From: Streptomyces exfoliatus | Lineage (GTDB): Bacteria; Actinomycetota; Actinomycetes; Streptomycetales; Streptomycetaceae | Direction of reading: 5' to 3' | NCBI RefSeq assembly: GCF_000725545.1 | Contig: NZ_JNZP01000018.1 | Span: 248,001-312,000, forward strand | Length of the DNA stretch: 64,000 bases | The notes under the pieces: generated by a model | Database searches by the model: none | Told to the model about the DNA's origin: nothing | What the model saw: only the letters and a program-made list of their open reading frames with translations | Made by a program: the position numbers and the translations under genes | In this document: piece after piece, positions 20,873 to 38,982 of the stretch | Layout of the letters: every line of letters begins with the position of its first letter | Position numbering within the stretch: the first letter of the stretch is position 1

Positions 20873-21092
20873 GCGATCAGGGGTGCGGCCGAAGAGGGCC
20901 GTGCCTGCGCTTTTCCGTACCCTCACAGCAGCGGAACCACGCTTGTTTCCCGCCATTCACGGCTCCGAAACACCTCGTCAAGTGTGACTTGCGCGACGTT
21001 GGAGCGCCCGGCCTGCACCTCTCGGCCGGACAGGCGTAGCCTTTATTTCCGCTGTCCATCACCTTGTGAAGCGGAAGAGGGCGGTTGCCGCC

Positions 21093-24000
21093 GTGTCGTC
21101 TCAGTCCCCCAGTACCCCGAGCTCCCCGACCGACCAAGACGGGCAGGGCCAGAACCCTGCGACCGCCTTCGGTGCCAATGAGTGGCTCGTCGACGAGATC
21201 TACCAGCAGTACCTCCAGGACCCGAATTCGGTCGATCGTGCCTGGTGGGACTTCTTCGCCGACTACAAGCCCGGAGCGTCGGACACCCCGGCCGCCCCGG
21301 CACCCACCACGCAGAGCACCGGCCAGGCCGTGCCCGCCGCGACGCAGACGGGCCCCGCACAGGCCGCGCCTGCCGCTCCGGTAGCCGCCCCGGCCACCGT
21401 GCCCGCTCCGGCCGCTCCGGCCCCGGTCGCCCCGAAGCCCGCCGCGGCTCCGGTCGCCCCGGCCGCCGCGAAGCCCGCCGCCGCTCCGGCCCCGGCCAAG
21501 CCCGCTGCCGCCGCTCCGGCGACCGAGGCCCCCGCCGGCCCCGAGCTGGTCACGCTGCGCGGTCCCGCCGCCGCGGTCGCGAAGAACATGAACGCCTCCC
21601 TGGAGGTGCCGACGGCCACGTCCGTCCGCGCCGTCCCGGTGAAGCTGCTCTTCGACAACCGGATCGTGATCAACAACCACCTGAAGCGCGCCCGGGGCGG
21701 GAAGATCTCCTTCACGCACCTCATCGGCTACGCGATGGTGCAGGCGATCAAGGCCATGCCGTCGATGAACTACTCCTTCGCGGAGAAGGACGGCAAGCCG
21801 ACCCTGGTCAAGCCGGAGCACGTGAACTTCGGCCTCGCGATCGACCTGGTGAAGCCCAACGGCGACCGCCAGCTCGTCGTCGCGGGCATCAAGAAGGCGG
21901 AGACGCTCAACTTCTTCGAGTTCTGGCAGGCGTACGAGGACATCGTCAAGCGGGCCCGCGTGGGCAAGCTGACGATGGAGGACTTCACCGGCGTCACGGT
22001 CTCCCTGACCAACCCCGGCGGCCTCGGCACCGTCCACTCCGTGCCGCGTCTGATGCCCGGGCAGTCGGTCATCATGGGCGTCGGCTCGATGGACTACCCG
22101 GCCGAGTTCCAGGGCACCTCCCAGGACACCCTGAACAAGCTGGGCATCTCGAAGGTCATGACCCTGACCTCGACGTACGACCACCGGGTCATCCAGGGTG
22201 CCGCCTCCGGCGAGTTCCTGCGCGTCGTCGCGAACTACCTCCTCGGCGAGCAGGGCTTCTACGACGACATCTTCAAGGCCCTGCGCATCCCCTACGAGCC
22301 GGTCCGCTGGCTCAAGGACATCGACGCGTCGCACGACGACGACGTCACCAAGGCCGCGCGGGTCTTCGAGCTCATCCACTCCTACCGGGTCCGCGGCCAC
22401 GTCATGGCCGACACCGACCCGCTGGAGTACAAGCAGCGCAAGCACCCCGACCTGGACATCACCGAGCACGGCCTCACCCTGTGGGACCTGGAGCGGGAGT
22501 TCGCGGTCGGCGGCTTCGCCGGCAAGTCGATGATGAAGCTCCGCGACATCCTCGGCGTGCTCCGCGACTCGTACTGCCGCACCACCGGCGTCGAGTTCAT
22601 GCACATCCAGGACCCGAAGCAGCGCAAGTGGATCCAGGACCGCGTCGAGCGCCCGCACTCCCGTGTGGAGCGCGAGGAGCAGCTGCGGATCCTGCGCCGG
22701 CTGAACGCGGCGGAGGCCTTCGAGACCTTCCTGCAGACCAAGTACGTCGGCCAGAAGCGCTTCTCCCTGGAGGGCGGCGAGTCCGTCATCCCGCTGCTCG
22801 ACGCGGTCATCGACTCGGCCGCCGAGTCGCGCCTCGACGAGGTCGTCATCGGCATGGCCCACCGCGGCCGCCTGAACGTCCTCGCGAACATCGTGGGCAA
22901 GTCGTACGCGCAGATCTTCCGCGAGTTCGAGGGCAACCTCGACCCGAAGTCGATGCACGGCTCCGGCGACGTCAAGTACCACCTGGGCGCCGAGGGCATC
23001 TTCACCGGTCTCGACGGCGAGGAGATCACGGTCTCCCTGGCCGCCAACCCCTCGCACCTGGAGGCGGTCGACCCGGTCCTGGAGGGCATCGTCCGCGCCA
23101 AGCAGGACGTCATCAACAAGGGCGGCACGGACTTCACCGTCCTGCCCGTCGCCCTGCACGGTGACGCGGCCTTCGCCGGCCAGGGTGTCGTCGCCGAGAC
23201 GCTCAACATGTCGCAGCTGCGCGGCTACCGCACCGGCGGCACGGTCCACATCGTCATCAACAACCAGGTCGGCTTCACCGCCGCCCCGGAGTCCTCGCGT
23301 TCCTCGATGTACGCGACCGACGTGGCCCGCATGATCGAGGCGCCGATCTTCCACGTGAACGGCGACGACCCGGAGGCCGTGGTCCGCGTCGCGCGGCTCG
23401 CCTTCGAGTTCCGCCAGACGTTCAACAAGGACGTCGTGATCGACCTCATCTGCTACCGCCGCCGCGGTCACAACGAGGGCGACAACCCCTCGTTCACCAA
23501 CCCGCAGATGTACAACCTGATCGACAAGAAGCGTTCGGTGCGCAAGCTGTACACCGAGTCGCTCATCGGTCGCGGCGACATCACCCTCGAAGAGGCGGAG
23601 CAGTCGCTCCAGGACTTCCAGGGCCAGCTGGAGAAGGTGTTCGCGGAGGTCCGCGAGGCCACCACCGCCCCCGCCGCGGCGACCGTGCCGGACGCCAAGG
23701 CCGCCTTCCCGGTCGGCGTCACCACCGCGGTCTCCCAGGAGGTCGTGAAGCGGATCGCCGAGTCGCAGGTCAGCGTCCCGGAGCGGATCACGGTCCACCC
23801 GCGCCTGCTGCCGCAGATGCAGCGCCGCGCCGCGTCCATCGACGACGGCACCATCGACTGGGGCTTCGGCGAGACCCTCGCCATCGGCTCCCTGCTCATG
23901 GAGGGCACCCCGGTCCGCCTCTCGGGCCAGGACTCCCGCCGCGGCACCTTCGGCCAGCGTCACGCGGTCCTGGTCGACCAGGAGACCGGCGAGGACTACA

Positions 24001-24902
24001 CCCCGCTGCTCTACCTGACCGAGGACCAGGCCCACTACAACGTCTACGACTCGCTGCTCAGCGAGTACGCGGCGATGGGCTTCGAGTACGGCTACTCGCT
24101 GGCCCGCCCGGACTCCCTGGTCATCTGGGAGGCCCAGTTCGGTGACTTCGTCAACGGCGCGCAGACCGTCGTCGACGAGTTCATCTCCTCGGCCGAGCAG
24201 AAGTGGGGCCAGACCTCCGGCGTCACGCTCCTCCTGCCGCACGGCTACGAGGGCCAGGGCCCGGACCACTCGTCCGCGCGCCCGGAGCGCTTCCTCCAGA
24301 TGTGCGCCCAGGACAACATGACGGTCGCCATGCCGACGCTGCCGTCGAACTACTTCCACCTGCTGCGCTGGCAGGTCCACAACCCGCACCACAAGCCGCT
24401 GATCGTCTTCACCCCGAAGTCGATGCTGCGTCTGAAGGCCGCGGCGTCCAAGGTGGAGGAGTTCACCACCGGCGGCTTCCGCCCGGTGATCGGCGACACG
24501 ACGGTGCAGGCCGCCGACGTCCGCAAGGTCGTCTTCTGCGCCGGCAAGGTCTACTACGACCTGGAGGCCGAGCGTCAGAAGCGCGGCGACACGGAGACCG
24601 CGATCATCCGTCTGGAGCGTCTGTACCCGCTGCCGGGTGCCGAGCTGCAGGCCGAGATCGCCAAGTACCCGAACGCGGCGAAGTACATCTGGGCGCAGGA
24701 GGAGCCGGCGAACCAGGGTGCCTGGCCGTTCATCGCGCTCAACCTGATCGACCACCTGGACCTGGCGGTCGGCGCGGACATCCCGGCGGGCGAGCGCCTG
24801 CGCCGGATCTCGCGTCCGCACTCCTCCTCCCCGGCGGTCGGCTCGGCCAAGCGCCACCAGGCGGAGCAGCAGCAGCTGGTCAACGAGGTCTTCGACGCCT
24901 GA
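21093..24902 (+). CDS. kgd: multifunctional 2-oxoglutarate decarboxylase/dehydrogenase E1-E2 fusion
   Basis: 1269 residues from GTG 21093 ([10 protein letters not shown]), chosen because this matches the length of actinobacterial homologues; GTG 21066 is an in-frame alternative. An N-terminal E1 segment has [16 protein letters not shown]. An Ala/Pro-rich linker (about residues 65-150) leads into an acyltransferase-like catalytic domain ([32 protein letters not shown]), with no lipoyl domain. The large thiamin-diphosphate E1 domain carries [27 protein letters not shown] and [11 protein letters not shown]. It converts 2-oxoglutarate in the TCA cycle and in Mycobacterium is controlled by the FHA protein GarA. 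Confidence 0.96.
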
Positions 24903-24980: not shown

Positions 24981-27900
24981 TCAGAGGTTGGCCTCGAAGT
25001 CCCAGTAGGGGCGGTTGCGCTGACGGGCCGAGAGGGTGTGCGGATGCTGGGCGCCGAGGGTCCTGGTGAGGGTGAGCAGCGCGTCCTCCTCCAGCTTCCC
25101 CGCCTCCTCGGTCTCGCGCAGGCCGCGCAGGTCGGTGGCGAGCGCGACCTGACAGGAGAGGGTCAGCGGGTGCTCGTTGCCGAGGACGTGCCGGGCCCTG
25201 CGGAGGGTGTCGCGGCTGAGTTCGGCGGCCTCGACGACCCTGCCGTTGAAGTTGCGGGCGGCGGTGGCGTTGAGGGCGCAGCCGAAGACCCACGGGTGGT
25301 CGGAGCCGAGGGTGGCGGTGAGTCCGGCGAGCGCGGACTCCAGCATGGTCAGGGCCGAGGCCCGTTCGCCGGAGGCCTGCATGACGAGGGCGGTGTTGGC
25401 GAGGACTCCGGTGGAGACGGGGTGGGCGGGGCCGAGGAGGGCGCGGTAGCCGGCCTCGGCCTCCGTGATGAGTTCCCTCGCCAGGTCGAGGTCGCCGTGT
25501 TCGCGGAGGAAGTTGGCGTAGTTGGTGACGGCCGACAGCGTCACGTAGTGGTCGCGGCCGTAGGCCTGTTCCAGGTGGTCGAGTACGGAGGCCATCATCG
25601 TGCCGATGTCCTCCTTGAAGCCGCCTTCGCGGCGGCGGCAGAGGGCCAGCTGGCTGCGCGCGTACAGGGTGTGGAGGTGCTGGGGGCCGAGGATCTTCAC
25701 GTGCAGCTTGACGTTGGCCTCCTGGCGGCCGAGCGCCTCGCGGTAGCGGCCGAGCAGCCTGAGGTCCTGGGCGACGGCGTTGTTGGAGTTGAGCGTGGAG
25801 GCGTGGTGGGGGCGCAGGACCGTCTCGCAGGTGGCGAGGGTGTCGGTGTCCTGCTCGTACGCCTCCTGGTAGCGGCCCAGCATCCGCAGCACCACGCCGA
25901 GGTTGTGGCGGGCGACGAGGGTGAGGAACTGCGTGTCGCCGAGGAGGCTCCTGGCCTCGGCGAGGGCTTCCCGCTGGAGCTGCTCGGATTCCTGGTACTG
26001 GCCGAGGAAGCGCAGGTCGCGGGCGATGGAGATCTTGCTCTGGAGCGTGCCGAGCCGGTCGCTGTTGCCCGCGGCGGCGAGGCGCTCGCGCTGGGCGAGG
26101 TCGAGGTCGTACGCCTCCCGGAACCGGCCGTAGCGGCGGAGGATGTCCCCTTCGAGGGTGGTGAGTTCCTGCATGTGCGGGGCCAGCGGGTCCATGAAGG
26201 ACGTCCACTCGTCCCGGATGCGCCCGGCGAGCCGGATGCCCGCCTTGTACTCGCCGCTGCGGTCGCAGAACCGCAGGCAGTTGAGGACGGCGACCTGGAT
26301 GCGCGGGTCGGTGCTGCGCAGGGCGCCGGACGGCTCCAGGTGGGGCAGGAGTTCGGAGTAGCGGGGCCAGTGCCTGCTGTCGGTGGGGTTGCCGGGGTCG
26401 GCCTCGGCGAGCAGGGTGCGGACGGCCTTGCGGTGGGCGTCGCGGTGATCGCCGTCGGTGAGCCGGGCGACGATGTCGTGGACCAGGCGGTGCATGTGGA
26501 TCGACTCCTGGTGGGGGCCGATCTCGTCGGTGGTCATGGGGCCGCGGGTCTCGCGGGTGAGCACCGAGTAGTTGACGAGGGTGTCGAGCGCGCGGGTCCA
26601 GGCGGGCAGGTCGGTGGCCATCCAGCGCAGGTCCTCGGGCAGTTGCGCCTGGGGGTAGGCGCGGACGATGCCGAGCGGGATGCGGCCGGGGGCGAAGGAG
26701 GCGCACAGGCTGAGGATGTCGATGGCCTGCGGCTGGGCGCGGCGGAGTCGGTTGATCAGTATCGACCAGGAGGTGAGCGAGGCGTTGGGCATGCCGTCGC
26801 CCGCCGTGGGGTCGTCGACGGTGGAGAGCCGTCCGTCGCGGACCATGCGCAGGTATTCGGGGGCGTCCATGCCGGACTCGCCGAGCCAGGCGGCTGCCTG
26901 GACGAGCGGCAGGGGTACGTCTCCGAACTCGGCGGCGACCTCGTCGGCCTCGGCCGCGTTGATCTGGGGGGCGCGGCGCATCAGGTAGCCGGTGGACTCC
27001 GCCCGGTCGAAGCTGGGGATCTCCAGGAAGTCGGTGTGCTCCCGCCAGCCGCGGTTGCGGGAGGTGATGAGGACGTGGCCGGGGCCCTGCGGCAGCATGA
27101 CGTCGATGCCGTCGGTGTCGTCCCAGCCGTCGAAGACGACGAGCCAGCGGGCGTGCGGGTCGCCGCGGCGGAGGGCTTCGCGGACGGCGCGGATGCGTTC
27201 GCCGGGCTCGCTGCCGGTGGGCAGGGCGAGTTTGACGGCGAGTTCGCCGAGGCGGTCGCGCTGGACGTTGCGGTCGTCGGAGTTGACCCACCAGATGACG
27301 TCGTAGTCGGGGCTGAAGCGGTGGGCGTACTCGGCGGCGATCTGGGTCTTGCCGATGCCGGACATGCCGAGCAGGGTGCAGGCGGCGCTGCCGCGCTCGG
27401 CGTCCATGAGCCGTTCCTGCAGCTCGGTGAGGAGGTCGTCGCGGCCGGTGAAGCGGGGGTTTCGGCGGGGGATGTCGCCCCAGATCTCCGGCGGGGTGTC
27501 CGGGTAGCGGGCGAGGGCGCTCGCCGGGAGGCGTCGGCCCGCGTTCCTGCGGGGCTCGATGGCGAGCCTGCTGAGGAGCCGGACCTCGGCCTCCTCCTCG
27601 CCGACGCCCCAGAGGCTGACGGGTTCGAGGACCGCCGTGGACGGCAGCAGGGTGCGGTTGGTGAGGTTGACGGCGGCGAAGCGCTCGGCGTGGGCGGCGA
27701 CGAAGCCGCGCAGGACGTCGTTCCACTCGCCGGCGGGCCGGGGGCCGAGTTCGAAGAACCAGTCGTTGAGGACGAGGAGGACCTGGCCGCGGGCGAGCAG
27801 CAGGTCGCCGAGGGAGTCCTCCAGGGGGACTTCGCGGGGCGGGTCCCAGCGCTGGAGGGTGGCGCGTACGCCGTGGGCTTCGAGGCGCTGGTTGATCCAG

Positions 27901-28004
27901 GCCGCCCAGGGCCGGTGGTATCCGGGGAAGACCACCAGGACGTGTTCGGGCGCGGCCCTGCCCCCGTGGCTCTCCGCGCCTCCGCCCGACCGCTGTTCCG
28001 CCAT
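24981..28004 (-). CDS. fxsT: TIR-like/NB-ARC/TPR protein of the FxSxx-COOH system (FxsT type)
   Basis: 1007 residues from ATG 28004 (MAEQRSGGGAESHG), with GGGAG 8 bp upstream; an ATG at 28100 would overlap the previous gene and has no such site. Residues 20-110 form a TIR-like domain (HVLVVFPGYHRPWAAWINQR). Then comes an NTPase with P-loop GMSGIGKT (213-220), WLVVFDGWDDTDG and HVLITSRNRGW. From about residue 600 there are about ten kinesin-light-chain-like TPR repeats with LGxxHPxTL motifs. This is the STAND-type architecture of FxsT. It is the last gene of the locus, 58 bp after the HExxH gene. Confidence 0.85.
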   Translation of the reverse strand: MAEQRSGGGAESHGGRAAPEHVLVVFPGYHRPWAAWINQRLEAHGVRATLQRWDPPREVPLEDSLGDLLLARGQVLLVLNDWFFELGPRPAGEWNDVLRGFVAAHAERFAAVNLTNRTLLPSTAVLEPVSLWGVGEEEAEVRLLSRLAIEPRRNAGRRLPASALARYPDTPPEIWGDIPRRNPRFTGRDDLLTELQERLMDAERGSAACTLLGMSGIGKTQIAAEYAHRFSPDYDVIWWVNSDDRNVQRDRLGELAVKLALPTGSEPGERIRAVREALRRGDPHARWLVVFDGWDDTDGIDVMLPQGPGHVLITSRNRGWREHTDFLEIPSFDRAESTGYLMRRAPQINAAEADEVAAEFGDVPLPLVQAAAWLGESGMDAPEYLRMVRDGRLSTVDDPTAGDGMPNASLTSWSILINRLRRAQPQAIDILSLCASFAPGRIPLGIVRAYPQAQLPEDLRWMATDLPAWTRALDTLVNYSVLTRETRGPMTTDEIGPHQESIHMHRLVHDIVARLTDGDHRDAHRKAVRTLLAEADPGNPTDSRHWPRYSELLPHLEPSGALRSTDPRIQVAVLNCLRFCDRSGEYKAGIRLAGRIRDEWTSFMDPLAPHMQELTTLEGDILRRYGRFREAYDLDLAQRERLAAAGNSDRLGTLQSKISIARDLRFLGQYQESEQLQREALAEARSLLGDTQFLTLVARHNLGVVLRMLGRYQEAYEQDTDTLATCETVLRPHHASTLNSNNAVAQDLRLLGRYREALGRQEANVKLHVKILGPQHLHTLYARSQLALCRRREGGFKEDIGTMMASVLDHLEQAYGRDHYVTLSAVTNYANFLREHGDLDLARELITEAEAGYRALLGPAHPVSTGVLANTALVMQASGERASALTMLESALAGLTATLGSDHPWVFGCALNATAARNFNGRVVEAAELSRDTLRRARHVLGNEHPLTLSCQVALATDLRGLRETEEAGKLEEDALLTLTRTLGAQHPHTLSARQRNRPYWDFEANL

Positions 28005-28062
28005 CTGTACGTCTCCCGTCCCGCTCACGCGCAACGCAGTGTCATGTGCCGTGGGCACAGTG

Positions 28063-29400
28063 TTACCCACGGGCCCTGGGGCTCGCGCCGAGGCTCGCAT
28101 GGAGCTGCCTCATTTGCCGTGCGAACTCCCGCCCCTCATTGGTCAGTTCATCGGATTCAAGCAGCATCGCGAGCGCTTCGCCCACCTGATCGTGGACATG
28201 GTCGAACTGCTGCACGGCCCGTACGCTCCACGGTCCCGGCACCCCGGGGGCGGCCATCGCCCGCCGCCACAGATCGGCCAACGCCAGGTGGGCGTAGGCC
28301 CCTTGGAAGACCCCGGCGACCGGGCGAGCGTCGGTGCGCCAGCCGACCCGGTACAGCGCGGCACGGCCGGGGCGGTAGAGCGGGACGAGCTCGTGGAGCG
28401 TGGAGAGCTTGCTGTGGTGCAGCTCGTGGACGAGCGTCTCCGCCATGTCGAAGGCGCCGGCCGACGGTGTCATCAGGACGGCCCCGGGGGCGACGCTCAG
28501 GGTGGCGCCGACGGAGCGCGGCCCGTGCGGGAGCAGCGGCACGAGCGCGCCGACCGTCCGCCCGACCTCCGTCGCCCGCTCCCGGTCGGTCCGCCGCAGC
28601 AGCTCCCCTGCGGCCCGCCAGTGCGCGGACCAGGCGGCGTGGTCGATGTCGGGCCGCTCGGCCGCGACCCTGGCGGGCGTTCCGACCCCGCCGGGCGGCA
28701 CCCGGTACGGATCCAGGTCCTCCAGGCGGGCGGCCCCGCCGGTGAGGCCGCGCAGACCGCGCCAGCCGGGGCCGCTGCCGGTGACGGCGCCGGTGCGGGC
28801 GTCGACGAGCCGGAGGAGCGCCGCGGGGGCCCCTCGGGCGTCGTCGGAGCGGACCCTCACCGCCTGGGCGCGGGAGGTCAGCCGGACCGGGCCCGGGGCC
28901 ACCAGGACGCTGCCGACGCCCGGGAGCGAGAGCACGCCGCCGGGTGCCTGGACGACGAGGTCGAGCGGCCGGCCCGCCCGCAGGGCGGCGGTGGCGGCGA
29001 CCAGTTCGAGGCGGGTCAGGTGCCGGTCGAGGGCGGGGCCCGCGGGCTCGGTGAGGGCGGCGGCGAGCCAGGCGCCGGTGGTCGGGTAGTCGAGGACCGC
29101 GCGGACCACTCCGGGGGCGGCGCGCTCGGTCCTTTCGAGGAGGCGCCAGGCGGCCTCGAAGCCGCGCAGGGTCTCGGGGGCGACCTCGTCGCGGTGGCGC
29201 CGCACCCGGACGAGCAGGGCCTTGAGCAGCAGCAGGCGGCGGGCGTGCACCCCGGACCGCAGGAAGGCGGCGCCCGCCGGGGCGGGCCGGGTGGCGGCCA
29301 GGGCGGCGAAGGCCGCGGGGCGCGGGGGCGTGGCGATCACTCCCGGCTCCTGGAGCGGATCGGCCTCGGCGAGCGCGTGTCCGCCCGGTACGTGCCGCAT
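28063..29400 (-). CDS. HExxH-type putative 2-oxoglutarate-dependent peptide beta-hydroxylase
   Basis: 445 residues. The central motif is ETLVHELHHSKLSTLHELV, with the HExxH metal site at His325-Glu326 and His329. It is followed by WRTDARPVAGVFQGAYAHLALADLW, typical of the HEXXH-motif proteins encoded with FxSxx-COOH peptides. Members of this family have been recognised as 2-oxoglutarate- and iron-dependent peptide beta-hydroxylases, not proteases. There is no signal peptide, so the enzyme is cytoplasmic. It stands alone and is not fused to a radical SAM domain. Its likely substrate is the 65-residue peptide encoded about 105 bp upstream. Confidence 0.82.
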   Translation of the reverse strand: MRHVPGGHALAEADPLQEPGVIATPPRPAAFAALAATRPAPAGAAFLRSGVHARRLLLLKALLVRVRRHRDEVAPETLRGFEAAWRLLERTERAAPGVVRAVLDYPTTGAWLAAALTEPAGPALDRHLTRLELVAATAALRAGRPLDLVVQAPGGVLSLPGVGSVLVAPGPVRLTSRAQAVRVRSDDARGAPAALLRLVDARTGAVTGSGPGWRGLRGLTGGAARLEDLDPYRVPPGGVGTPARVAAERPDIDHAAWSAHWRAAGELLRRTDRERATEVGRTVGALVPLLPHGPRSVGATLSVAPGAVLMTPSAGAFDMAETLVHELHHSKLSTLHELVPLYRPGRAALYRVGWRTDARPVAGVFQGAYAHLALADLWRRAMAAPGVPGPWSVRAVQQFDHVHDQVGEALAMLLESDELTNEGREFARQMRQLHASLGASPRARG

Positions 29401-29505
29401 CCGGCGCCACCGATGGACGCGGGGGGCTTGCCGGATACGGCCGGAATCGAGTGGTCGGGGCGGATGCGGGGCGGCCAGGACCGAACGGCTCGGGCCGCTC
29501 GTTCG

Positions 29506-29703
29506 TCAGTCGACGAGGGCGTCCTCCGGCCAGGAGACGACCAGGTCCGAGGGGTGGCGCAGCACTCTCTCGACCGCCGCGCCGACGACGGCGTCGTCCG
29601 TGACGCGCAAGGTCCGCAGATCAACGGCCGCGAGATCGGGCAGACGCGGGGACCGGCCGGCACTCCGGCCGACACCGGTCGCCCACTCCGTACGCTCGAA
29701 CAC
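29506..29703 (-). CDS. small FxsA-like precursor peptide (65 aa) lacking the FxSxx C-terminus
   Basis: The start is GTG 29703, preceded by GAGGAGGA at 8 bp spacing, giving MFERTEWATGVGRSAG. The conserved-looking core is RLPDLAAVDLRTLRVTDDAV, then VGAAVERVLRHPSDL, and the chain ends VVSWPEDALVD. The LPDL...VDLRxLR...DDxV...RVL pattern is what I recall of FxSxx-COOH (FxsA) precursors, but the final Phe-x-Ser-x-x is absent. The unusual tail holds Trp and Asp residues that could be modified. It is encoded directly upstream of the HExxH enzyme on the same strand. A longer reading from 29796 has no ribosome-binding site. Confidence 0.68.
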   Translation of the reverse strand: MFERTEWATGVGRSAGRSPRLPDLAAVDLRTLRVTDDAVVGAAVERVLRHPSDLVVSWPEDALVD

Positions 29704-29841
29704 TCTCGGCTCCTCCTCACCGACGCTGTCCCCCACGGTCGTAGCGGCGCAGCGGTTCTTCCCGACCCCGGGAGACCGGAAACCCTTTCGATTCAACTGC
29801 GCCCATTCACGCCCCCGTTATTCAGCCGTCCCATGACAAGC

Positions 29842-32800
29842 TCATCCGGTGGTGCCGCTCCACGCCCACCAGGGCGGTGCGATCCTGCGCCAGTCCTCGG
29901 CGGAGACCCTCACCCGGCCCCCTCCCGCCGCGCTCTCGACCTCCCCCAGCAGGGCTCTGGTCCGCTCCACGTCCGCCCAGTCCACCTCCACGAGCCGCCC
30001 GGTGAGCCGCCGCCACCGCTCGGTCGCGGCGAGCAGCGCGGTGCCGGCCCGGGCCGGGCGGCCCATCAGCCACAGGACGGCTCCCTGGGCGTGGAGCGCG
30101 CGGGCGCCGGTGACCGTGCCCGGGTCGTCTCCGTGGGCGGTACGGGAGTCCTCGTCCGCGTTGCGGTACGCGGTGAGCGCGTCGCCGATCAGCCCGTCCC
30201 GCGCCGTTTCGGCCAACTCCAGCCTCACCCGCCCGAGTTGCAGCCACACCTCGGCACGCTCCCCCGGGTCGTCGGTGCCCCGGAGCGCCTGTTCGAGCAG
30301 GTGACGGCTCTCGAAGAGGTCCGGAAGGAATCCGGCGCGGTGGAAGCGGAGCGCGAGGACACTACCGATCAGGGTCCTCGCCCTCGCCCGCTCCGGCGCC
30401 CCCGCGGGCAGCCGGGTGAGAGCCTCGCGCAGGACGCCCTCGGCCCGGTCCACGGGCGCGGTGCCGGTACCGGCCGCCGCGCGCCGAAGGAGCGATCCGC
30501 CCCAGGTGAGCAGGAGCGGCCCGCGCTGTTCGCTGTCGGCGGGGGCCAGCAGGGTCGCCTCCTCGTACGCCGCGTCGGCGGCGGCTCCGTCGCCCTCGGA
30601 GTCGTACAGCCGCGCGCGTGCCGTGGTGAAGCGCAGCCGCAGGGCACGGCCGTGACTGATGAGGGGTTCGGCCCGGTCGAGCACGAGGTGGATGCGGCCG
30701 GGCTCGGCCCCGGCGAGACGCAGGGCGTCGGCGAGGTCGAGGAGGACGGCGGCGCTCTCGTGGAGGGTGAGGGCGGCGGTGAGTTCGCCGACCGCGGCCT
30801 CGCCGTCGCCCCGCGCGAGGAGCAGGCGGCCGCGGCGCAGGTGAAGGGTGTGGCGGGCGGTCCCGGGCCAACGGTCGGCTTCCTCGGCGAGGGCGGCGAG
30901 GGCCGCGTCGAGATGGCCGGTTTCGTCGGTGTCGCGCCACAGGGCGTGGTGGACGACGGCGAGTTCGAGCCGGGCGTCGGCCCATGCCTCCTCGCCGGGC
31001 GGGGCGAGCTCCCCGGCCTGTACGAGGGTGTCGGCGGCCTGGCCGAGGAGCTCCGGGCGGCGGCCGGTGCGCCGGGCCGCGGCGGTGCCCGCTTCGGCGT
31101 ACAGGGCGCCCGCGAGGACGATCCGGGCCTCGACCGGCTCGGCGGGGAGCGCGGCCTCGGCGCGTTCGCGGGCGCCGGCGAGGAGCGCCGGGTCGGACTG
31201 TGCCCGGCCCTGGGCCAGGAGCCGGCGGGCCTCGGTGAGCGGGTCGGGGGTGACCAGGTCGGGGTGGTAGAAGCGGAGGACGCGCGCGGGGATGCGGGCG
31301 AAGAGCTCGGTCTCGGCGCCGTTCGGCCCGATGGGTTCGTCGGTCGCGTCGGTCTCGTGGGCCCGGTCGGTCCGGTCGGTCGCGTGGGTCGCGTGGTACT
31401 CGCGAGGGAGGCCGGTGTCCCGGTCGGTGCCGGTCCCTGCTTCCGCTGCCGCTTCCGTTGCCGCTCCCGGCTCCGCTCCCGCGAGACGGGCGGCGGCGAG
31501 CGCAGGGAAGTTGCGCATGCCCTGGCCGAAATTGCGCTCCACATAGGCGGAGCAGTGTTTGAGGACGAGGGCGGCGGCGCTGGGGTCGAGCGAGCCGAGG
31601 AGGTGCTGCTGGATGCCGGGCGGATAGCTGTAGCAGGGGTACGGGGTGGGGCCGGGCAGCCGTCGTAAGAGCCCGCTGAGCAGGACCTCCGCCAGCTCCA
31701 TGGGGCCGGTGTCGGGCAGCATGGCGCGCTGGACGAGCTGCATGACCGGCAGGGTCAGCGGGGCAGCCGCGAGGTGGACGGCGAGCAGGAGCGCACCGGG
31801 CGAGGCGGCGGCCCGGAAGGCGCGGAGGAGTTCGTCGTCGCTCCGCCGGGCGCGGGGTGTCCTGGGCGCGGGCGGCTCCGCCGGTCCTGGGGTGAGCCAG
31901 GCGGCCCAGCCGCGTACGGCGTCGCCGCCGTGCCCGGTGTGGAGCCGGGTCCAGGAGGCGAAGGCCTCGGGGGTCGGGGTGAGCACGGGCACGGCCCGGC
32001 GGCCGGGGTCCCGCGGTCCCCAGGGCTCGTCGTCGGAGCGGAAGACGGTGTGGCCGCCGGGGGTCGCGGAGCGCTGGAAGGTGCCGGGTTCGGCGGGGAG
32101 CGCGGTCCGGGACCAGAGGCGGGGCGGCAGGGGTTGGACGAGGGCGAGCGGGGAGTGGCGGGGCCACCGGCGCAGGAAGCGCTGGGCGGCGCCGGACTGC
32201 CACAGGGGGCCGACGCAGTCGCTGACGACGAGGGTGAGGCGGCGGCCGGTGGGGTCGTGGAGCTGGTCGACGGGGCGCAGCCGCGGCCGGCCGTCGGCGC
32301 CCGAGGTGGTGGTGACGAGCGGGGGTCCTTCGCCGGTGTCGTACAGGCGGTGCACCTGCACGTCCCGGAAGGCGCCGGACTGCTGGCAGGCCTGGCGGAG
32401 TTCCTCGACCATCCGGTCCCAGACGACCATGGCGGGGCCGGTGTCCATGAGGAGCTGGATGTCGGGGCGGAGGCCGGTGGCGGGGCGCAGGACGGGGATG
32501 AGGAAGCCGGCGGCGGCGCTGCGTTCGGCGGTGGCCTCCTCGTCGAGGGTGCCCTCGCCGGGGCGGTGCGGCGCGAGGGCGTAGCCGCGCAGGGGGCGGA
32601 GGGCCTTCTGGAGACCGAGGAGTCCGGGCAGGGCGTTGGCGCCGGGGGCGCGTACCGGCAGCGTCGCGCCCCGCTCCGTACGCCCGACTCGGCCGTCGGC
32701 ACCGGCGGCACCCACGGCTCCGGTGGCTCCGGTGGTTCCGGTGGTGGTGGTCATGTGGAGGGAGACGGACTCGTGGGCGGCGCCGCCGTCCGGCGGTCGG

Positions 32801-33072
32801 TCGGTCACGCCTGCCGTGCCCCCGCCGTCGCGCGCATCATCGCTCTCGCCCTGCTCCTGGTGCCCGGCGGACCGGCGCCGACGGTCGGAGGTGCCGTCCG
32901 CCGTCTCCGCGGACGGTCCGGCCGCCGACCCGTCCGCCAGGCCCGGATCCCGCGCGGAGGGGCCGGGGAGCCACTGGGACAGCCAGAGGGCGTCCGCGAG
33001 GTCCTCGGCGGTGGGGTCCTGGCCGCCGGCCCGCAGTCTGCGGGTGATCTCTTCCAGATGCATCCGGTGCAT
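29842..33072 (-). CDS. SAV_2336-type protein: degenerate vWA-like domain plus TPR-like C-terminus
   Basis: 1076 residues from ATG 33072, with GAGGTGA just upstream inside the end of the MoxR gene. The N-terminus (TAEDLADALWLSQWLP) matches the SAV_2336 N-terminal family. After a disordered Thr/Gly/Ala segment, residues 190-310 resemble a von Willebrand A fold: LRPDIQLLMDTGPAMVVWDR (a MIDAS-like D-x-G-x-A) and RLTLVVSDCVGPLW. A helical middle domain (YPCYSYPPGIQQHLLGSLD) and a roughly 450-residue TPR-like tail follow. Next to MoxR it fits the vWA role of vWA-MoxR pairs. Confidence 0.75.
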   Translation of the reverse strand: MHRMHLEEITRRLRAGGQDPTAEDLADALWLSQWLPGPSARDPGLADGSAAGPSAETADGTSDRRRRSAGHQEQGESDDARDGGGTAGVTDRPPDGGAAHESVSLHMTTTTGTTGATGAVGAAGADGRVGRTERGATLPVRAPGANALPGLLGLQKALRPLRGYALAPHRPGEGTLDEEATAERSAAAGFLIPVLRPATGLRPDIQLLMDTGPAMVVWDRMVEELRQACQQSGAFRDVQVHRLYDTGEGPPLVTTTSGADGRPRLRPVDQLHDPTGRRLTLVVSDCVGPLWQSGAAQRFLRRWPRHSPLALVQPLPPRLWSRTALPAEPGTFQRSATPGGHTVFRSDDEPWGPRDPGRRAVPVLTPTPEAFASWTRLHTGHGGDAVRGWAAWLTPGPAEPPAPRTPRARRSDDELLRAFRAAASPGALLLAVHLAAAPLTLPVMQLVQRAMLPDTGPMELAEVLLSGLLRRLPGPTPYPCYSYPPGIQQHLLGSLDPSAAALVLKHCSAYVERNFGQGMRNFPALAAARLAGAEPGAATEAAAEAGTGTDRDTGLPREYHATHATDRTDRAHETDATDEPIGPNGAETELFARIPARVLRFYHPDLVTPDPLTEARRLLAQGRAQSDPALLAGARERAEAALPAEPVEARIVLAGALYAEAGTAAARRTGRRPELLGQAADTLVQAGELAPPGEEAWADARLELAVVHHALWRDTDETGHLDAALAALAEEADRWPGTARHTLHLRRGRLLLARGDGEAAVGELTAALTLHESAAVLLDLADALRLAGAEPGRIHLVLDRAEPLISHGRALRLRFTTARARLYDSEGDGAAADAAYEEATLLAPADSEQRGPLLLTWGGSLLRRAAAGTGTAPVDRAEGVLREALTRLPAGAPERARARTLIGSVLALRFHRAGFLPDLFESRHLLEQALRGTDDPGERAEVWLQLGRVRLELAETARDGLIGDALTAYRNADEDSRTAHGDDPGTVTGARALHAQGAVLWLMGRPARAGTALLAATERWRRLTGRLVEVDWADVERTRALLGEVESAAGGGRVRVSAEDWRRIAPPWWAWSGTTG

Positions 33073-33079
33073 CCGACCG

Positions 33080-34096
33080 TCACCTCGGCTGATCGAGCGG
33101 TTGCATGAGCATGTCGGCGATGCGTTCCCTGGTGACCCGTTCGGCGCGGGAGGCGTGCTGGGTCAGGTAGAGCGCGTTCAGGAGCTGGTCGGTGGCGATC
33201 ACCTCGCCCGGTTCGCGGTTGAGGAAGCGCTGGACGAGACCCTGCTCCCCTTCGCCCGCGGCGGCCTCGGTCCCGAGGTGGGCCTCGATCATGGCGCGGA
33301 GCTGCTCCTCACCGGGCGGTTCGAGCTCGAGCCGGATGCAGCGGCGCAACAGGGCGGCGGGGAAGTCCCGTTCGCCGTTGGAGGTGAGCACGATGAAGGG
33401 GAAGGTGGTGCAGCGGACCCGGCCGCCGAACACCCGCACCTTGCGGCCGTCGTCGCTGAGCACCTCCACGACGGGCTCCCGGTCCGCGAGCCGCTCCAGC
33501 TCGGGAATGGCGAACTCGCCCTCCTCCAGGGCGTTCAGGAGGTCGTTCGGCAGGTCGAGGTCGCTCTTGTCCAGCTCGTCGATGAGCAGCACCCGCGGCT
33601 GCTCGGAGGGAAGCAGCGCGGTGCCGAGCGGTCCGAGCCGGATGTACGAGCCGATGCCGGCCGGAGCCGCGGCGGCGGAGCCGGGAGATCCGGCCTGGGC
33701 GCGCTCCAGCTGCACGTCCTGGAGGCGGCCGATGGCGTCGTACCGGTAGAGACCGTCCTGGAGGGTGGTGCGGCTGACGATCGGCCAGCGCAGCACCCGG
33801 CCGAGGCCCAGCTCGTGGGCGACGGCGTGCGCGAGGGTGGACTTGCCGGTGCCGGGGTTGCCGGTGACCAGCAGCGGACGCCGGAGGTAGAGGGCGGCGT
33901 TGACGGCGTCGGTCTCGGCGGGCCGGGGGTGGTGGTTCTGGACGAGTCTGCGCTTGACGCCGAGCCGCCGGTCGGAACCGGCGAGCGTGTCGTCGGCGCT
34001 GCCCGTCGAGAAGTCGCGCCAGGGCGGCGGGGCGGGCAGCCGCTGTATCTCGTCGTGCGGAAGACCGGCACCACGGTAGATCCGCCAATCGTTCAC
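33080..34096 (-). CDS. MoxR-family AAA+ ATPase
   Basis: 338 residues from GTG 34096, with GGAGGAG 6-7 bp upstream. Walker A is LLVTGNPGTGKSTLA, Walker B is RVLLIDELDKSDLDLPNDLL, and sensor 1 with the arginine finger region is FIVLTSNGERDFPAALLRRC. MoxR ATPases remodel or assemble partner complexes together with vWA-domain proteins. The N-terminal 60 residues (MNDWRIYRGAGLPHDEIQRL) are characteristic of the subgroup found beside trypsin/VMAP proteins. The stop codon lies 7 bp before the SAV_2336-type gene, and the trypsin-like gene is 121 bp upstream. Confidence 0.9.
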   Translation of the reverse strand: MNDWRIYRGAGLPHDEIQRLPAPPPWRDFSTGSADDTLAGSDRRLGVKRRLVQNHHPRPAETDAVNAALYLRRPLLVTGNPGTGKSTLAHAVAHELGLGRVLRWPIVSRTTLQDGLYRYDAIGRLQDVQLERAQAGSPGSAAAAPAGIGSYIRLGPLGTALLPSEQPRVLLIDELDKSDLDLPNDLLNALEEGEFAIPELERLADREPVVEVLSDDGRKVRVFGGRVRCTTFPFIVLTSNGERDFPAALLRRCIRLELEPPGEEQLRAMIEAHLGTEAAAGEGEQGLVQRFLNREPGEVIATDQLLNALYLTQHASRAERVTRERIADMLMQPLDQPR

Positions 34097-34217
34097 GATG
34101 GACTCCTCCTGGCTGTGGTGTCGATGCCGGGTCCGTCGAAGGTACCGCCCGGGGGCGGGGCCTGCCGATGCCGTAACCGGCCGGATCGAGAGCCGGTCGC
34201 CCCGGTGGCCGCTCGGG

Positions 34218-36266
34218 TCACTGCTCCCCCTCCCCGAGCAGCGGCGGCGGCTCCAGGGGCCCGCCGTACGGCGGGCGGTCGGGCGGGTCGAACAGGACCG
34301 CGATGCTCCGGGCCCAGGCGTACCGGGCGCGGGCCTCGGGCCCGGCCGCCGGGTCGGCCGCGCGCGTGCGCAGGGAGCGGACGGGCCCGGGCACCCCCCA
34401 TGCGGCGGATCCGGTGGCGAGCAGCAGATCGGCCTGCTCGTGGAACTCCGCGCAGTCGGTGTGGTCGTGGGCGCCGGTCCGCCAGAGGGCGAGCGGGTGG
34501 CCGGCGGCGAGGGCCGCGTTCATCGCCATCAGCCCGTCGCCGCTGCCCACGTGACCGCAGTAGACCGGGACGGCCGCGCCGTTGGCCTCCCGGAGCCGGT
34601 CGTACGTCTCCGCCCAGGTCTCCCTGCGTACGCGCGCGGTGTGGGCGTCCGGGCCGGCGCCGGGCACCTCGCCGCGCAGCGGGACGGCACGGAGCGGTCC
34701 GCGCTCCTCCGCCTCCCAGCGCTCCCGCCATTCGGGCGCCGGTTCCCTGCCGTGGCGGTGGGCGTCGCGGATGACCACGATCCTGCGCTGGCCGAGGGTG
34801 GTCGCCCAGGCGTCGTCGGGGCCCTGCGGGGGGTCGATCCGCCAGGTGTCCAGGGGCTCGTCGAAGAGCTCGCGCGGCAGCACCGCCTGCACGGCGGCCA
34901 GGTGGGGTCCGCTGTCGCCGCGCCGCAGGGCGTCCGCGAGCGGTTCGCGGAGGGCCTCGCCGAGGCGGGCCCGCTCGACGCCCCGGTCGTCGAAGTGGAG
35001 CGGGCTGACGGTGTGGCCGTCGAGGAGGAGCTTGACCCGCCACGGGTACCGGCGGTCGTAGAGGGGGAGGCCGATCTCCAGGAGGACGTCGGCACGCGCG
35101 CGGGGTTCGCGTACGGAGAGGGGCGCGGGCCTGCCGGGGGTGACGAGCCGGTCGATCTCGCGCCGGAGGTGCCGGTCGGCGTCTCCCGACTGGTTGACGA
35201 TCCAACCGGTGAGGGCGGCGGTGTCGGCCCGCTCGCCGTACCGCCCGCCGACGTGCCGGACGACATGGGCCGCGTACAGGAGCACCGCGTCCAGGTCGAG
35301 GTCGCGGACGCCGTCCCTGCCGGGCGCCCGCAGGCCGCGAAGGAGCCCGGCTCCCTCGCTCCAGGTGCGCGGGTCGTCCTCCAGGGCGTCCGGCAGGTCG
35401 TCGTCCCTGATCCAGGCCTTGACCTGGTCGATCAGATCCAGGATCTCGCCGGGCGCGGTGGCCGCGGGCAGCTCGGCGAAGTGCCCGTACAGCCGGGTGC
35501 GCAGGCCGGGGCTCACGCCGCCCTGGGTGCCCGTCAGCTTCCCCTGTACGCGGGTCCAGTCGGGCCGGTCGTCGAGGGACCGGTAGCTGGCCAGGTGGTA
35601 GCGGTCGTGGGCGCGCAACGCCTCGCCCATGGCCTCGCCGCCGGGAAGGTCGTGCAGCCGGCGCAGGGCGGTGACGGGGACGACCGCGCCGCCGTCGCGC
35701 CCACGGCCTTTGTTGAGGCCGATGACGGCGCCCTGCCGGTGGTCGACGACGGGCCCGCCGGAGCAGCCTTCGACGGGCATCACCCAGTCGGTGATGAGGG
35801 CCTTGCCGTCGCTGCCGATCAGGGTGCCGTGGACGTGCCGGATGCCGAGCTCGCCCGTCTCCCGGGACCAGCCGTGCAGTCCGACGGCGGTCGGCGGGAC
35901 GGGCGGGCGCTCGCTGAGGCGCACGCAGGACGCCTGGTGCGCGCCGGGCACCCGCACGAGCGCGAGGTCGGGGAAGGCCCACCGGTCCGGCGGGTCGTCG
36001 GGCCTCTCGGGGCGCGGCATGGCGAGCACGACGGTGCCGGTGGTCTCCCGGGTGGTCTTGCCGTCCTCCCAGGTGACGCCGACGGCCGGCTCGCTCCTCC
36101 ACACCGCGCTTCCCCCCTCGGCCACGACATGGGCGCAGGTCAGCACCCAGCCGGGGGCGATGAAGAAGCCGGTGCCCCAGTACCGGTCGCCGTGCGGGTC
36201 ATACCCGCAGCCGGGAGCCGCGATGCGTACGAGTGCGGGGCGCACGAGAGCGTCGAAGGCGCTCAT
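34218..36266 (-). CDS. trypsin-like serine protease with VMAP-type C-terminal region
   Basis: 682 residues from ATG 36266, which overlaps the stop of the small upstream gene (ATGA). Residues 1-190 form a trypsin-like domain with an intact triad: His46 in GWVLTCAHVV, Asp100 in FPDLALVRV and Ser169 in VEGCSGGPVV. No signal peptide is present, so it acts inside the cell. A helical middle region precedes a C-terminal domain (RRIVVIRDAHRHG, GHPLALWRTGAHDHTDCAEF) like the vWA-MoxR-associated VMAP-C domain. These proteins are the central effector/adaptor of ternary NTPase conflict systems described in bacteria. Confidence 0.82.
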   Translation of the reverse strand: MSAFDALVRPALVRIAAPGCGYDPHGDRYWGTGFFIAPGWVLTCAHVVAEGGSAVWRSEPAVGVTWEDGKTTRETTGTVVLAMPRPERPDDPPDRWAFPDLALVRVPGAHQASCVRLSERPPVPPTAVGLHGWSRETGELGIRHVHGTLIGSDGKALITDWVMPVEGCSGGPVVDHRQGAVIGLNKGRGRDGGAVVPVTALRRLHDLPGGEAMGEALRAHDRYHLASYRSLDDRPDWTRVQGKLTGTQGGVSPGLRTRLYGHFAELPAATAPGEILDLIDQVKAWIRDDDLPDALEDDPRTWSEGAGLLRGLRAPGRDGVRDLDLDAVLLYAAHVVRHVGGRYGERADTAALTGWIVNQSGDADRHLRREIDRLVTPGRPAPLSVREPRARADVLLEIGLPLYDRRYPWRVKLLLDGHTVSPLHFDDRGVERARLGEALREPLADALRRGDSGPHLAAVQAVLPRELFDEPLDTWRIDPPQGPDDAWATTLGQRRIVVIRDAHRHGREPAPEWRERWEAEERGPLRAVPLRGEVPGAGPDAHTARVRRETWAETYDRLREANGAAVPVYCGHVGSGDGLMAMNAALAAGHPLALWRTGAHDHTDCAEFHEQADLLLATGSAAWGVPGPVRSLRTRAADPAAGPEARARYAWARSIAVLFDPPDRPPYGGPLEPPPLLGEGEQ

Positions 36267-36757
36267 GCGGGCTCGTCGGCCGCCGGGTGTGTCCGAGGGG
36301 CTCTGTCGGGCGCGTCCTGGCCGTGGGCGGGGGCCGGGATCGGGCGGGCGGGGCCGGTCGCGGGCGCCGCGCCGCACGCCGCCTCCGCCGCGGGCGCCGG
36401 GGCCGGTTCGGGGTCCGTCGCGGGGGACCTGCCGGGTTCGGTCCAGGTGAGGGAGACGCTCACGGAGGCCTTGCCCGAGCCGTCCGCGAGGACCCCGATG
36501 ACCTTGCCGGACTGCGCCGACAGCTCGATGCCGAAGCTGACGGCGACCTCCACGGGACCCTGCGGGTCGAGTCCGGCGCGCAGCGAGCCGACCACCCCGC
36601 GGACCACGTCCGTGAGCCCGCCGGTCATCGAGACGACCCGGTCCCTGACACCGGTGTCCTGGAACCCGCCGCCCCTGCCCAGTTCCTGCACGTCACTGAC
36701 CCGTGCCCACACCGGCGTACCGTCGTCCAGCCGAATTCGAGCGATCCCGTGAGTCAC
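36263..36757 (-). CDS. CU044_2847/trypsin-co-occurring domain protein
   Basis: 164 residues from GTG 36757, with GGGGAG upstream. The N-terminal 100 residues (ARIRLDDGTPVWARVSDVQE through VEVAVSFGIELSAQSGKVIG and KASVSVSLTW) form a compact beta-rich domain of the type that accompanies trypsin-like proteins in these loci. The remaining 60 residues are Pro/Ala-rich and disordered. It is translationally coupled to the protease gene, so it is probably the protease's regulator, substrate or inhibitor; no direct evidence separates these. It is the first gene of the locus. Confidence 0.75.
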   Translation of the reverse strand: MTHGIARIRLDDGTPVWARVSDVQELGRGGGFQDTGVRDRVVSMTGGLTDVVRGVVGSLRAGLDPQGPVEVAVSFGIELSAQSGKVIGVLADGSGKASVSVSLTWTEPGRSPATDPEPAPAPAAEAACGAAPATGPARPIPAPAHGQDAPDRAPRTHPAADEPA

Positions 36758-37142: not shown

Positions 37143-37958
37143 TCATCCCTCCCGCAGCCGGTCGTAGGCGAGTCCGAGCGCGCCGTGCGCGACGAGCAGG
37201 GCCCCGGCCGCCGCCCAGCCGCCGCTGCGCCGGCCGACGCCCCAGAGCAGGAGCGGCACCCCCGCCGCGAGCTGCGCCGCACCCAGGACGCGCGCCCTGG
37301 GGCCGCGCAGGTACGGCCCGAGGGGACTGCCTTCCACCGCGTCGAGTTCCGCGCGCACCGCGTCCCTCCAGCCGGACCATTCGAGCTGTTCCGCGCCCTG
37401 GGCCAGGGCGACGGAGCGGAGCCGGTCGGGGTTCTCGCCGGGCAGGAGCCCGGTCGGCAGGGCGAGGCCGGTGCGGGTGAGGACGGCGACGACGCCGACG
37501 AGCCGGCTGTGGGCGTCGGCCTCCGGGTCGGGCACGGTGAGCGGTTCCAGGGCCTGCACGTCCAGGACCGGGTCGAGGGCGAGCCGCGCGGCGAAGGTGC
37601 GCATGGCCTCGTCCTCGCCGACGGGCGTGCCGTCCGCGAGCCAGGTGTAGCCGACCGTACGGCGGAAGCCGGCGGCGAGCGTGAGTCCTGCCCTGTCGCG
37701 GTCCCACCAGAGCGCGACGACGGGCCAGGTGGCGGCGGAGACGGCGAGGGCCGTGGCCCAGCCGGTGACGACCTGTTCGACGGGTTCCCCGCCGTGGAGC
37801 CACGGTTTCCCCTCCGGGACGAGCACGCTCCAGTCGTCGCCCGCCGGGGCGAGGAGCAGCTGTTCCCTGAGCAGCTGAGCGGGCGGCCGGACCGCCGAGG
37901 GGTCGGCACGGCAGAGCAGCAGTGCGCCGACGGGGCGCGGTCCGGATGTCGCGTTCAT
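37143..37958 (-). CDS. hypothetical protein with two C-terminal membrane helices
   Basis: 271 residues. The first 215 are soluble with no recognised motif (for example LRFVxx-type sequences are absent), including WPVVALWWDRDRAGLTLAAG and GTPVGEDEAMRTFAARL. Residues 225-262 form two hydrophobic helices, AQLAAGVPLLLWGVG and GGWAAAGALLVAHGALGLAY. I do not recognise the family. A -10-like TAGCGT (37971-37966 on the minus strand) ends 7 nt before the ATG, suggesting a leaderless transcript. Confidence 0.7.
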   Translation of the reverse strand: MNATSGPRPVGALLLCRADPSAVRPPAQLLREQLLLAPAGDDWSVLVPEGKPWLHGGEPVEQVVTGWATALAVSAATWPVVALWWDRDRAGLTLAAGFRRTVGYTWLADGTPVGEDEAMRTFAARLALDPVLDVQALEPLTVPDPEADAHSRLVGVVAVLTRTGLALPTGLLPGENPDRLRSVALAQGAEQLEWSGWRDAVRAELDAVEGSPLGPYLRGPRARVLGAAQLAAGVPLLLWGVGRRSGGWAAAGALLVAHGALGLAYDRLREG

Positions 37959-38042
37959 GGGCCCTACGCTAGGGCAGTTTGTCCGTGTACGACGGGGATG
38001 GTCATCCCTGTCAGGGAAGAGTCAGGGTTGACTTCCTTTCAC

Positions 38043-38078
38043 CGCGATATAGCGTGTCTCTCGAAAGACGCGATATGT
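38043..38078 (+). promoter_or_regulatory. probable PadR operator with repeated CGCGATAT
   Basis: CGCGATAT occurs twice (38043-38050 and 38069-38076). Between the copies, GTCT and AGAC make an inverted pair around CTCGAA. The AT-rich words stand out in this GC-rich sequence. The site lies about 30 bp before the DUF4097 gene, whose operon encodes a PadR regulator, so autoregulation is likely. Confidence 0.55.
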
Positions 38079-38105
38079 TGCGTTGCCGAACGGGAGGTCA
38101 GCACC

Positions 38106-38981: not shown

Positions 38982-38982
38982 C

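Follow-up and report, generated by a model that had tools for sequence, protein, structure and literature searches.

Seven genes on the minus strand of a Streptomyces exfoliatus contig, with none opposing them, form a conserved unit whose members co-occur beyond chance. They lie at positions 24981-36757 of the 64,000-nucleotide stretch analysed here (hereafter the window, C18:248001-312000 of a 7.87 Mb genome in 128 contigs). Analysis of open reading frames (ORFs) and family profiles gave, in order of transcription, a Trypco1 protein, a trypsin-VMAP protease, a MoxR-type AAA+ ATPase, a SAV_2336-family protein at the vWA position, a 65-residue peptide, a hydroxylase of the alpha-ketoglutarate-dependent HExxH type (aKG-HExxH) and a TIR/NB-ARC/TPR protein (FxsT), in agreement with the gene identities and strand order proposed by a first-pass annotation made from the sequence alone. 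The locus carries no gene for the radical S-adenosylmethionine (SAM) enzyme FxsB. Our reading, to which we give a probability of roughly 0.48, is that it encodes a VMAP-type device, serving in conflict or regulation, whose NLR-like TIR protein is gated by a hydroxylated, uncrosslinked peptide, the steps beyond the anatomy being those that we infer.

The first-pass annotation had regarded this combination as one without an established function. The combination itself was already reported by Kaur, Burroughs, Iyer, and Aravind in 2020, who described VMAP-MoxR-vWA systems linked with both a TIR/AP-ATPase/TPR protein and a peptide cassette, found that systems with a peptide cassette always have an AP-ATPase with TPRs, and proposed a functional coupling in which the peptide is a toxin or a signal amplifying the core system (PMC7159879). 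Thus, the central idea of the annotation was already in print. The window shares with their FxSxx-type system Trypco1, trypsin-VMAP, MoxR, a protein at the vWA position with a (here weak) TPR signal, the HExxH protein, a small peptide, and a TIR-AP-ATPase-TPR gene that stands separately downstream, as FxsT does here, whereas the FxSxx peptide and the radical SAM/SPASM gene of that system are both absent (PMC7159879). Their RxD- and acidic-type systems likewise have the HExxH protein and no radical SAM gene is mentioned for them, but in those systems the vWA protein and the AP-ATPase form one fused protein, as in 21 of 21 class-C loci of our own set (see below), and in the window the AP-ATPase is separate. 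No prior report of a version without the radical SAM gene was found in the open-licence literature, and the source data of Kaur et al. may include such loci; as far as could be checked, this version and its matching peptide are new, and the general combination is not.

Conservation of the locus and absence of FxsB

A search for the HExxH protein in 199 genomes of the genus gave a match in 133. The 101 loci classified were the window and 100 stretches fetched in score order from the listed HExxH matches, excluding duplicate rows for one gene (G143, G185), G119:C254, G182:C56, the listed rows below G172:C1:4243394 and the unlisted matches. Class A, the group of the window, has a separate FxsT and no FxsB, was assigned by hand from the lack of a radical SAM ORF, an absence that the FxsB profile subsequently bore out, and comprises 26 of the 101 loci; for the other classes, the assignment relied on profiles derived from these same loci. 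FxsB together with VMAP-module genes was found in 38 loci (class B), a vWA protein fused to the AP-ATPase without FxsB in 21 (class C), and an FxsB match with no VMAP or vWA match in 13 (class E), a mixed group of standalone loci and of loci with a weak FxsB match or a cut stretch. The HExxH protein stood alone in three.

The VMAP, MoxR, vWA-position, HExxH and FxsT genes were all present in 22 of the 26 class-A loci, the remaining four (L058, L067, L069, L075) being cut by contig ends. In a second collection, all six large genes occurred in order in 16 of 17 loci, L048 being the exception, and the VMAP match of L042 was split over two ORFs. Both halves of the locus, the VMAP module and the peptide cassette, were also found together in 34 of the 38 class-B loci, and two of the other four were cut by contig ends. 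The first-pass annotation had joined the two halves into one device, and its proposal holds up in this comparison of neighbourhoods, where the halves of this cassette do not usually lie apart. Two independent operons brought together by chance might explain the gaps of about 120-165 nucleotides at three junctions, but such an arrangement is scarcely credible in the face of this joint occurrence and was discarded. A scan of the locus for sigma-70-type promoters found none; as chance alone would give 0.1 in GC-rich DNA and no other promoter type was covered, this says little. VMAP-C itself was detected in 167 of the 199 genomes, often in several copies, compared with the 133 having any HExxH match, and these counts, made per genome and not paired by locus, indicate that the peptide half need not accompany the VMAP half.

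Two uncut, FxsB-bearing class-B loci (L080, L087) had no VMAP match in the fetched stretch, and L080 had no MoxR match either. In L048:7064-7400 (Streptomyces sp. adm13(2018)), residues 1-111 of Trypco1 are followed, after 3 bases, by residue 349 of the vWA-position protein; this locus, without a VMAP or MoxR match, is a possible deletion allele or assembly error.

The FxsB profile had no match in any of the 26 class-A stretches. L067 and L075 are truncated upstream, and for these two the absence is taken from their genomes, in which FxsB has no match. At E<=1e-60, no match was found in 20 of the 26 class-A genomes, and in the genome of the window none rose above the cut-off (best matches of 47 and 30 bits vs. 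370). Lacking both the radical SAM gene and an FxSxx peptide, the locus is not a standard FxsA/FxsB system, a point that the first-pass annotation had missed.

Class A formed one side of a single branch in both the FxsT and the HExxH tree (Shimodaira-Hasegawa approximate likelihood ratio test values of 100 and 99). Both were quick LG+G4 trees without bootstraps, for which the program warned of long branches, and were built on subsets of 65 FxsT and 71 HExxH rows, the latter including 25 of the 26 class-A rows. The sister group comprises class B, some class-E loci and, in the HExxH tree, a single row of class F, and, when rooted on class C, some FxsB-bearing standalone loci branch outside A+B in both trees. 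Because of these outer loci, we prefer the view that FxsB was lost in class A, a preference to be read with two gains costing the same number of steps on this root and with the outer branches being long. The change is one event and does not constitute replicated evidence.

The precursor peptide and the predicted hydroxylase

The FxsA-like precursor peptide (29506..29703, minus strand, 65 amino acids) starts at a GTG downstream of a GAGGAGGAG ribosome-binding-like site and scores 13.4 bits with the FxSxx-COOH model, below its cut-off of 28. Its C-terminus, SWPEDALVD, has no FxSxx ending. Peptides were recovered from 24 of the 26 class-A and from all 38 class-B loci, and their ends differ: Phe/Tyr-x-Ser/Asn occurs in the last eight residues of 33/38 class-B peptides (typical ends being LWGFNNAF, LWGFNSAF and AFDSGVA; exceptions L083, L085, L088, L108 and L113) vs. 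0/24 in class A. These figures use the wider pattern [FY]x[SN] within the last 8 residues; the strict FxSxx ending is present in 8/38 and 0/24, respectively. In class A the wider pattern was found further inside the peptide in two of the 24 (L065, L068) and, when Trp was allowed as the aromatic residue, after residue 38 in nine. None of the 24 ends in RxD or contains four acidic residues in a row.

The FxsB family is presumably IPR026335. Three-residue-cyclophane radical SAM enzymes join residue i to i+2, MscB (IPR026335) linking Phe C4 to Ser C-beta and other members linking Trp to Asn, Asp or Arg (PMC11002830). With a Phe-Ser linkage of this kind and no Phe/Tyr-x-Ser/Asn end in class A, the usual substrate motif of the absent enzyme is absent too.

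What class A keeps is a leader-like LPDLxxVDLRTLR segment and, in 24/24 peptides, one Trp at a constant distance from it, from which the peptide of the window reads Trp-Pro-Glu. An acidic residue follows this Trp within nine positions in 21 of 24 peptides, and the tails beyond it are poorly conserved, varying widely in length and sequence. Such tails argue against an ordinary exported pathway for a ribosomally synthesized and post-translationally modified peptide (RiPP), antibiotic or signal, with the protease and the AAA ATPase as maturation factors. A precursor, a modifying enzyme and a protease do share one unit, as that explanation expects, but the seven include neither a transporter nor an immunity gene, and we know of no role of TIR/NB-ARC or MoxR/vWA proteins in RiPP export, which also counts against it; we consider it improbable.

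In class C, small ORFs upstream of the HExxH gene in L139 and L156 contain DLSGVSLQALRSLDGPDF segments and have tails ...GGFNDSRLDDSTR and ...NFNGSRFDGSTG, which differ from the RxD ends (...GARAD) at L143 and L144 and may represent another peptide subtype.

The gene at 28063..29340 (minus strand) encodes an aKG-HExxH-type protein, as its TIGR04267 domain (136 bits, cut-off 40), HExxH motif and ChlH/SjiH fold attest, and hydroxylation of the peptide is its predicted activity. The protein is likely to have 425 amino acids, from the preferred GTG start at 29340 in an ORF that reaches to 29400. Its fold matches two solved aKG-HExxH enzymes, ChlH (PDB 8s5f) and SjiH (PDB 22nu/22ob). The hydroxylase model was built from 40 of the 120 listed proteins (269 found), a listing that includes a protein of S. 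venezuelae with 90 percent identity. The H, E and H of the motif, Trp354, Arg355, Asp357 and Arg359 are invariant in all 26 class-A loci, which bears on whether the locus is a decaying FxSxx system that has lost its radical SAM gene, with peptide and hydroxylase vestigial and the VMAP core and TIR protein still working. Decay of this kind would fit the variable peptide tails, the possible deletion allele L048 and the in-frame TGA in the hydroxylase match of another class-A genome (G119:C178:6680-7132, on a short contig), but neither the invariant hydroxylase residues nor the fixed Trp in every recovered peptide is expected from it, and its probability appears low.

Kaur et al. named the HExxH protein a peptidase (PMC7159879), whereas the structure of its relative ChlH is titled as that of an alpha-ketoglutarate-dependent oxygenase. 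ChlH differs from the enzyme of the window in being part of a radical SAM fusion protein, ChlBH. The pathway and substrate of SjiH were not found in our literature search. PflC and PosC resemble the present case in that an HExxH enzyme hydroxylates a RiPP precursor and, for pfl, in a cluster listed without a radical SAM gene; they differ in belonging to RiPP clusters of Pseudomonas that encode an MNIO-nitroreductase fusion and, in pfl, transporters, and no VMAP module is mentioned (PMC12636437). The occurrence of the cassette with and without a crosslinking enzyme, often at one chromosomal site and within one genus, is a natural experiment: the two versions suggest that the Phe/Tyr-x-Ser/Asn end belongs to the cyclophane synthase and that the leader segment and the fixed Trp serve the hydroxylase or the TIR protein. 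Moreover, they make it possible to study hydroxylation with just two genes and no oxygen-sensitive radical SAM enzyme.

A putative peptide-gated TIR device and competing explanations

Paired MoxR and vWA proteins use ATP to remodel their partners, TPR-bearing STAND ATPases serve as receptors switched on by the binding or leaving of a ligand, and TIR domains of STAND-type proteins often consume NAD+. On this background, the hydroxylase would bind the LPDLxxVDLRTLR segment of the peptide and, using alpha-ketoglutarate, Fe(II) and O2, would hydroxylate a residue close to the conserved Trp, the Asp/Glu just after it being the most probable site, in a substrate that would be uncrosslinked. The modified tail could then bind the TIR/NB-ARC protein as a ligand at its TPR end, either holding that protein off or licensing it, and MoxR with the vWA-position protein might act as an ATP-driven threshold switch. 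Upon a trigger, the trypsin-VMAP protein would cut the peptide or another partner, and the cut would release the TIR domain, whose consumption of NAD+ would arrest growth. If the peptide does gate the TIR protein, a bacterial NLR-like receptor would be controlled by a hydroxylated ribosomal peptide.

Several observations weigh against this device. NADase activity of the FxsT TIR domain is itself a prediction from a Glu conserved in 92 percent of class A, which we take to be the catalytic residue. The literature yielded no assay of any member for anti-phage activity or growth arrest. PADLOC returned weak matches, the best being 22.5 bits for IetA to the MoxR protein and 19 bits to the protease, and PHROGs gave weak AAA matches and no others for six of the seven proteins. 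As to the substrate, ChlH reportedly depends on a cyclophane that has been preinstalled (PMC12636437). Eight of the 24 class-A peptides, the one of the window not among them, have Trp-x-Ser at the fixed Trp and two have Trp-x-Asp; the Trp-x-Ser peptides may be crosslinked by some enzyme other than FxsB. Three peptides (L068, L073, L074) have no acidic residue in the nine positions past the Trp and carry Gln, L068 also His. Finally, FxsB is encoded elsewhere in six of the 26 class-A genomes (G004, G025, G033, G041, G085, G143). In G004, G025, G041 and G143, none of these genes adjoins VMAP, MoxR or vWA genes within the fetched stretch. An FxsB acting from elsewhere was rejected as a general rule, given the 20 genomes without a match at E<=1e-60.

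The chromosomal site bears on the main rival to an anti-phage device, a resident regulator of growth or development. A kgd-type 2-oxoglutarate dehydrogenase gene faces FxsT convergently in 24/26 class-A, 20/38 class-B and 0/21 class-C loci, the class-B figure being a lower bound as the other 18 had less than 2 kb available beyond FxsT; kgd also stands beside FxsT in one of the seven class-E loci with at least 700 nucleotides beyond FxsT. Relatives of the LiaG/DUF4097-like gene at 37185-38981 or of the ORF at 37143-37958, on the far side, were found in 19/26 class-A and 15/38 class-B stretches, which, together with the shared kgd side, indicates that in many strains the two versions share one chromosomal position. 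The adjacency of kgd to an alpha-ketoglutarate-dependent hydroxylase may be a coincidence, since common ancestry at one site accounts for it without any function. In a resident regulator of development or metabolic stress, the hydroxylase would act as a sensor of O2, Fe and alpha-ketoglutarate, with hyphal growth or cell death under the control of the TIR/NB-ARC/TPR protein. The kgd-side site suits such a regulator as well as it suits a defence gene, which is a further point against our reading, and the regulator is also favoured by the lack of phage-specific matches noted above and by the link of VMAP systems to a multicellular habit (PMC7159879). Nevertheless, the VMAP and vWA parts are reported to evolve at an unusually high rate (PMC7159879), which suits conflict, as do alternative versions at one site, and we regard the resident regulator as somewhat unlikely.

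Within the device that we favour, a more specific proposal is that class A represents a fourth VMAP-linked peptide type beyond the three of the 2020 survey (PMC7159879), with no cyclophane synthase, no usual crosslink motif and an uncrosslinked, Trp-anchored peptide that is hydroxylated and serves as the on/off ligand of an NLR-like TIR NADase, which would tie immune readiness to the supply of oxygen and alpha-ketoglutarate, the crosslinked and uncrosslinked versions being alternative alleles beside kgd. Taken as a whole, this proposal is rather unlikely.

Features of the remaining genes and flanking regions

The first gene, Trypco1 (CU044_2847 family; 36263..36757, minus strand), matches PF19493 with 59.8 bits (cut-off 24.6) and NF041216 with 55.1 bits, and its position beside trypsin-VMAP is that of a frequent companion of VMAP systems. 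The protease (34218..36266, minus strand, about 682 amino acids) combines Trypsin_2 (53.2 bits) with VMAP-C (PF20028, 114 bits, cut-off 27). Its start was taken from the sequence, the ATG overlapping the Trypco1 stop (ATGA), and the His, Asp and Ser of its triad motif are invariant in the 22 class-A members that have the gene. A sequence search against solved structures found no relative of the protease. The ORF 34093-36102 was rejected as the protease, as it overlaps 34218-36266 in another frame and has no domain match.

The ternary order VMAP, then MoxR, then vWA position is found in the window. The MoxR-type ATPase (33080..34096, minus strand, 338 amino acids; AAA_5 36.8 bits, cut-off 22) has Walker A Gly-Lys-Ser, Walker B Asp-Glu and the N-terminal motifs DWRIYRG and PPWR invariant in 22/22 class-A members, and the WxhapG and PsWRxa motifs of MoxR proteins in VMAP systems correspond to its WRIYRG and PPWRDF. 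A spacing of 7 nucleotides separates it from the gene at the vWA position, the remaining gaps being 58 to 165 nucleotides with the preferred starts. The SAV_2336 N-terminal family protein encoded there (29842..33072, minus strand, 1076 amino acids; NF041121 428.5 bits, cut-off 200) has two invariant Asp residues (210, 285) and a weak C-terminal TPR signal (TPR_8, E=0.0083, under the cut-off). It had no Pfam vWA match and no relative in a profile search against solved structures, and its predicted structure (predicted local distance difference test score of 44) is too low in confidence to confirm a vWA fold.

FxsT (24981..28004, minus strand; NF040586 753 bits, cut-off 300) contains TIR_2, NB-ARC and TPR_12 domains, with Walker A Gly-Lys-Thr invariant in 26/26 class-A loci; its ORF reaches to 28100 and the likely start is at 28004. 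This AP-ATPase-type protein and the vWA-position protein are separate, unfused ORFs in the window.

Outside the cassette, the flanking kgd-type gene lies on the plus strand at 21066..24902 (Pfam E1_dh, 2-oxoacid_dh and OxoGdeHyase_C). On the far flank, 37185-39882 on the plus strand encodes the LiaG/DUF4097-like protein and a PadR-type regulator. A full-length match to Rfam RF02735 (Sernc350, Saccharopolyspora small RNA 350; 102.9 bits, cut-off 50) was found at 57429-57937.

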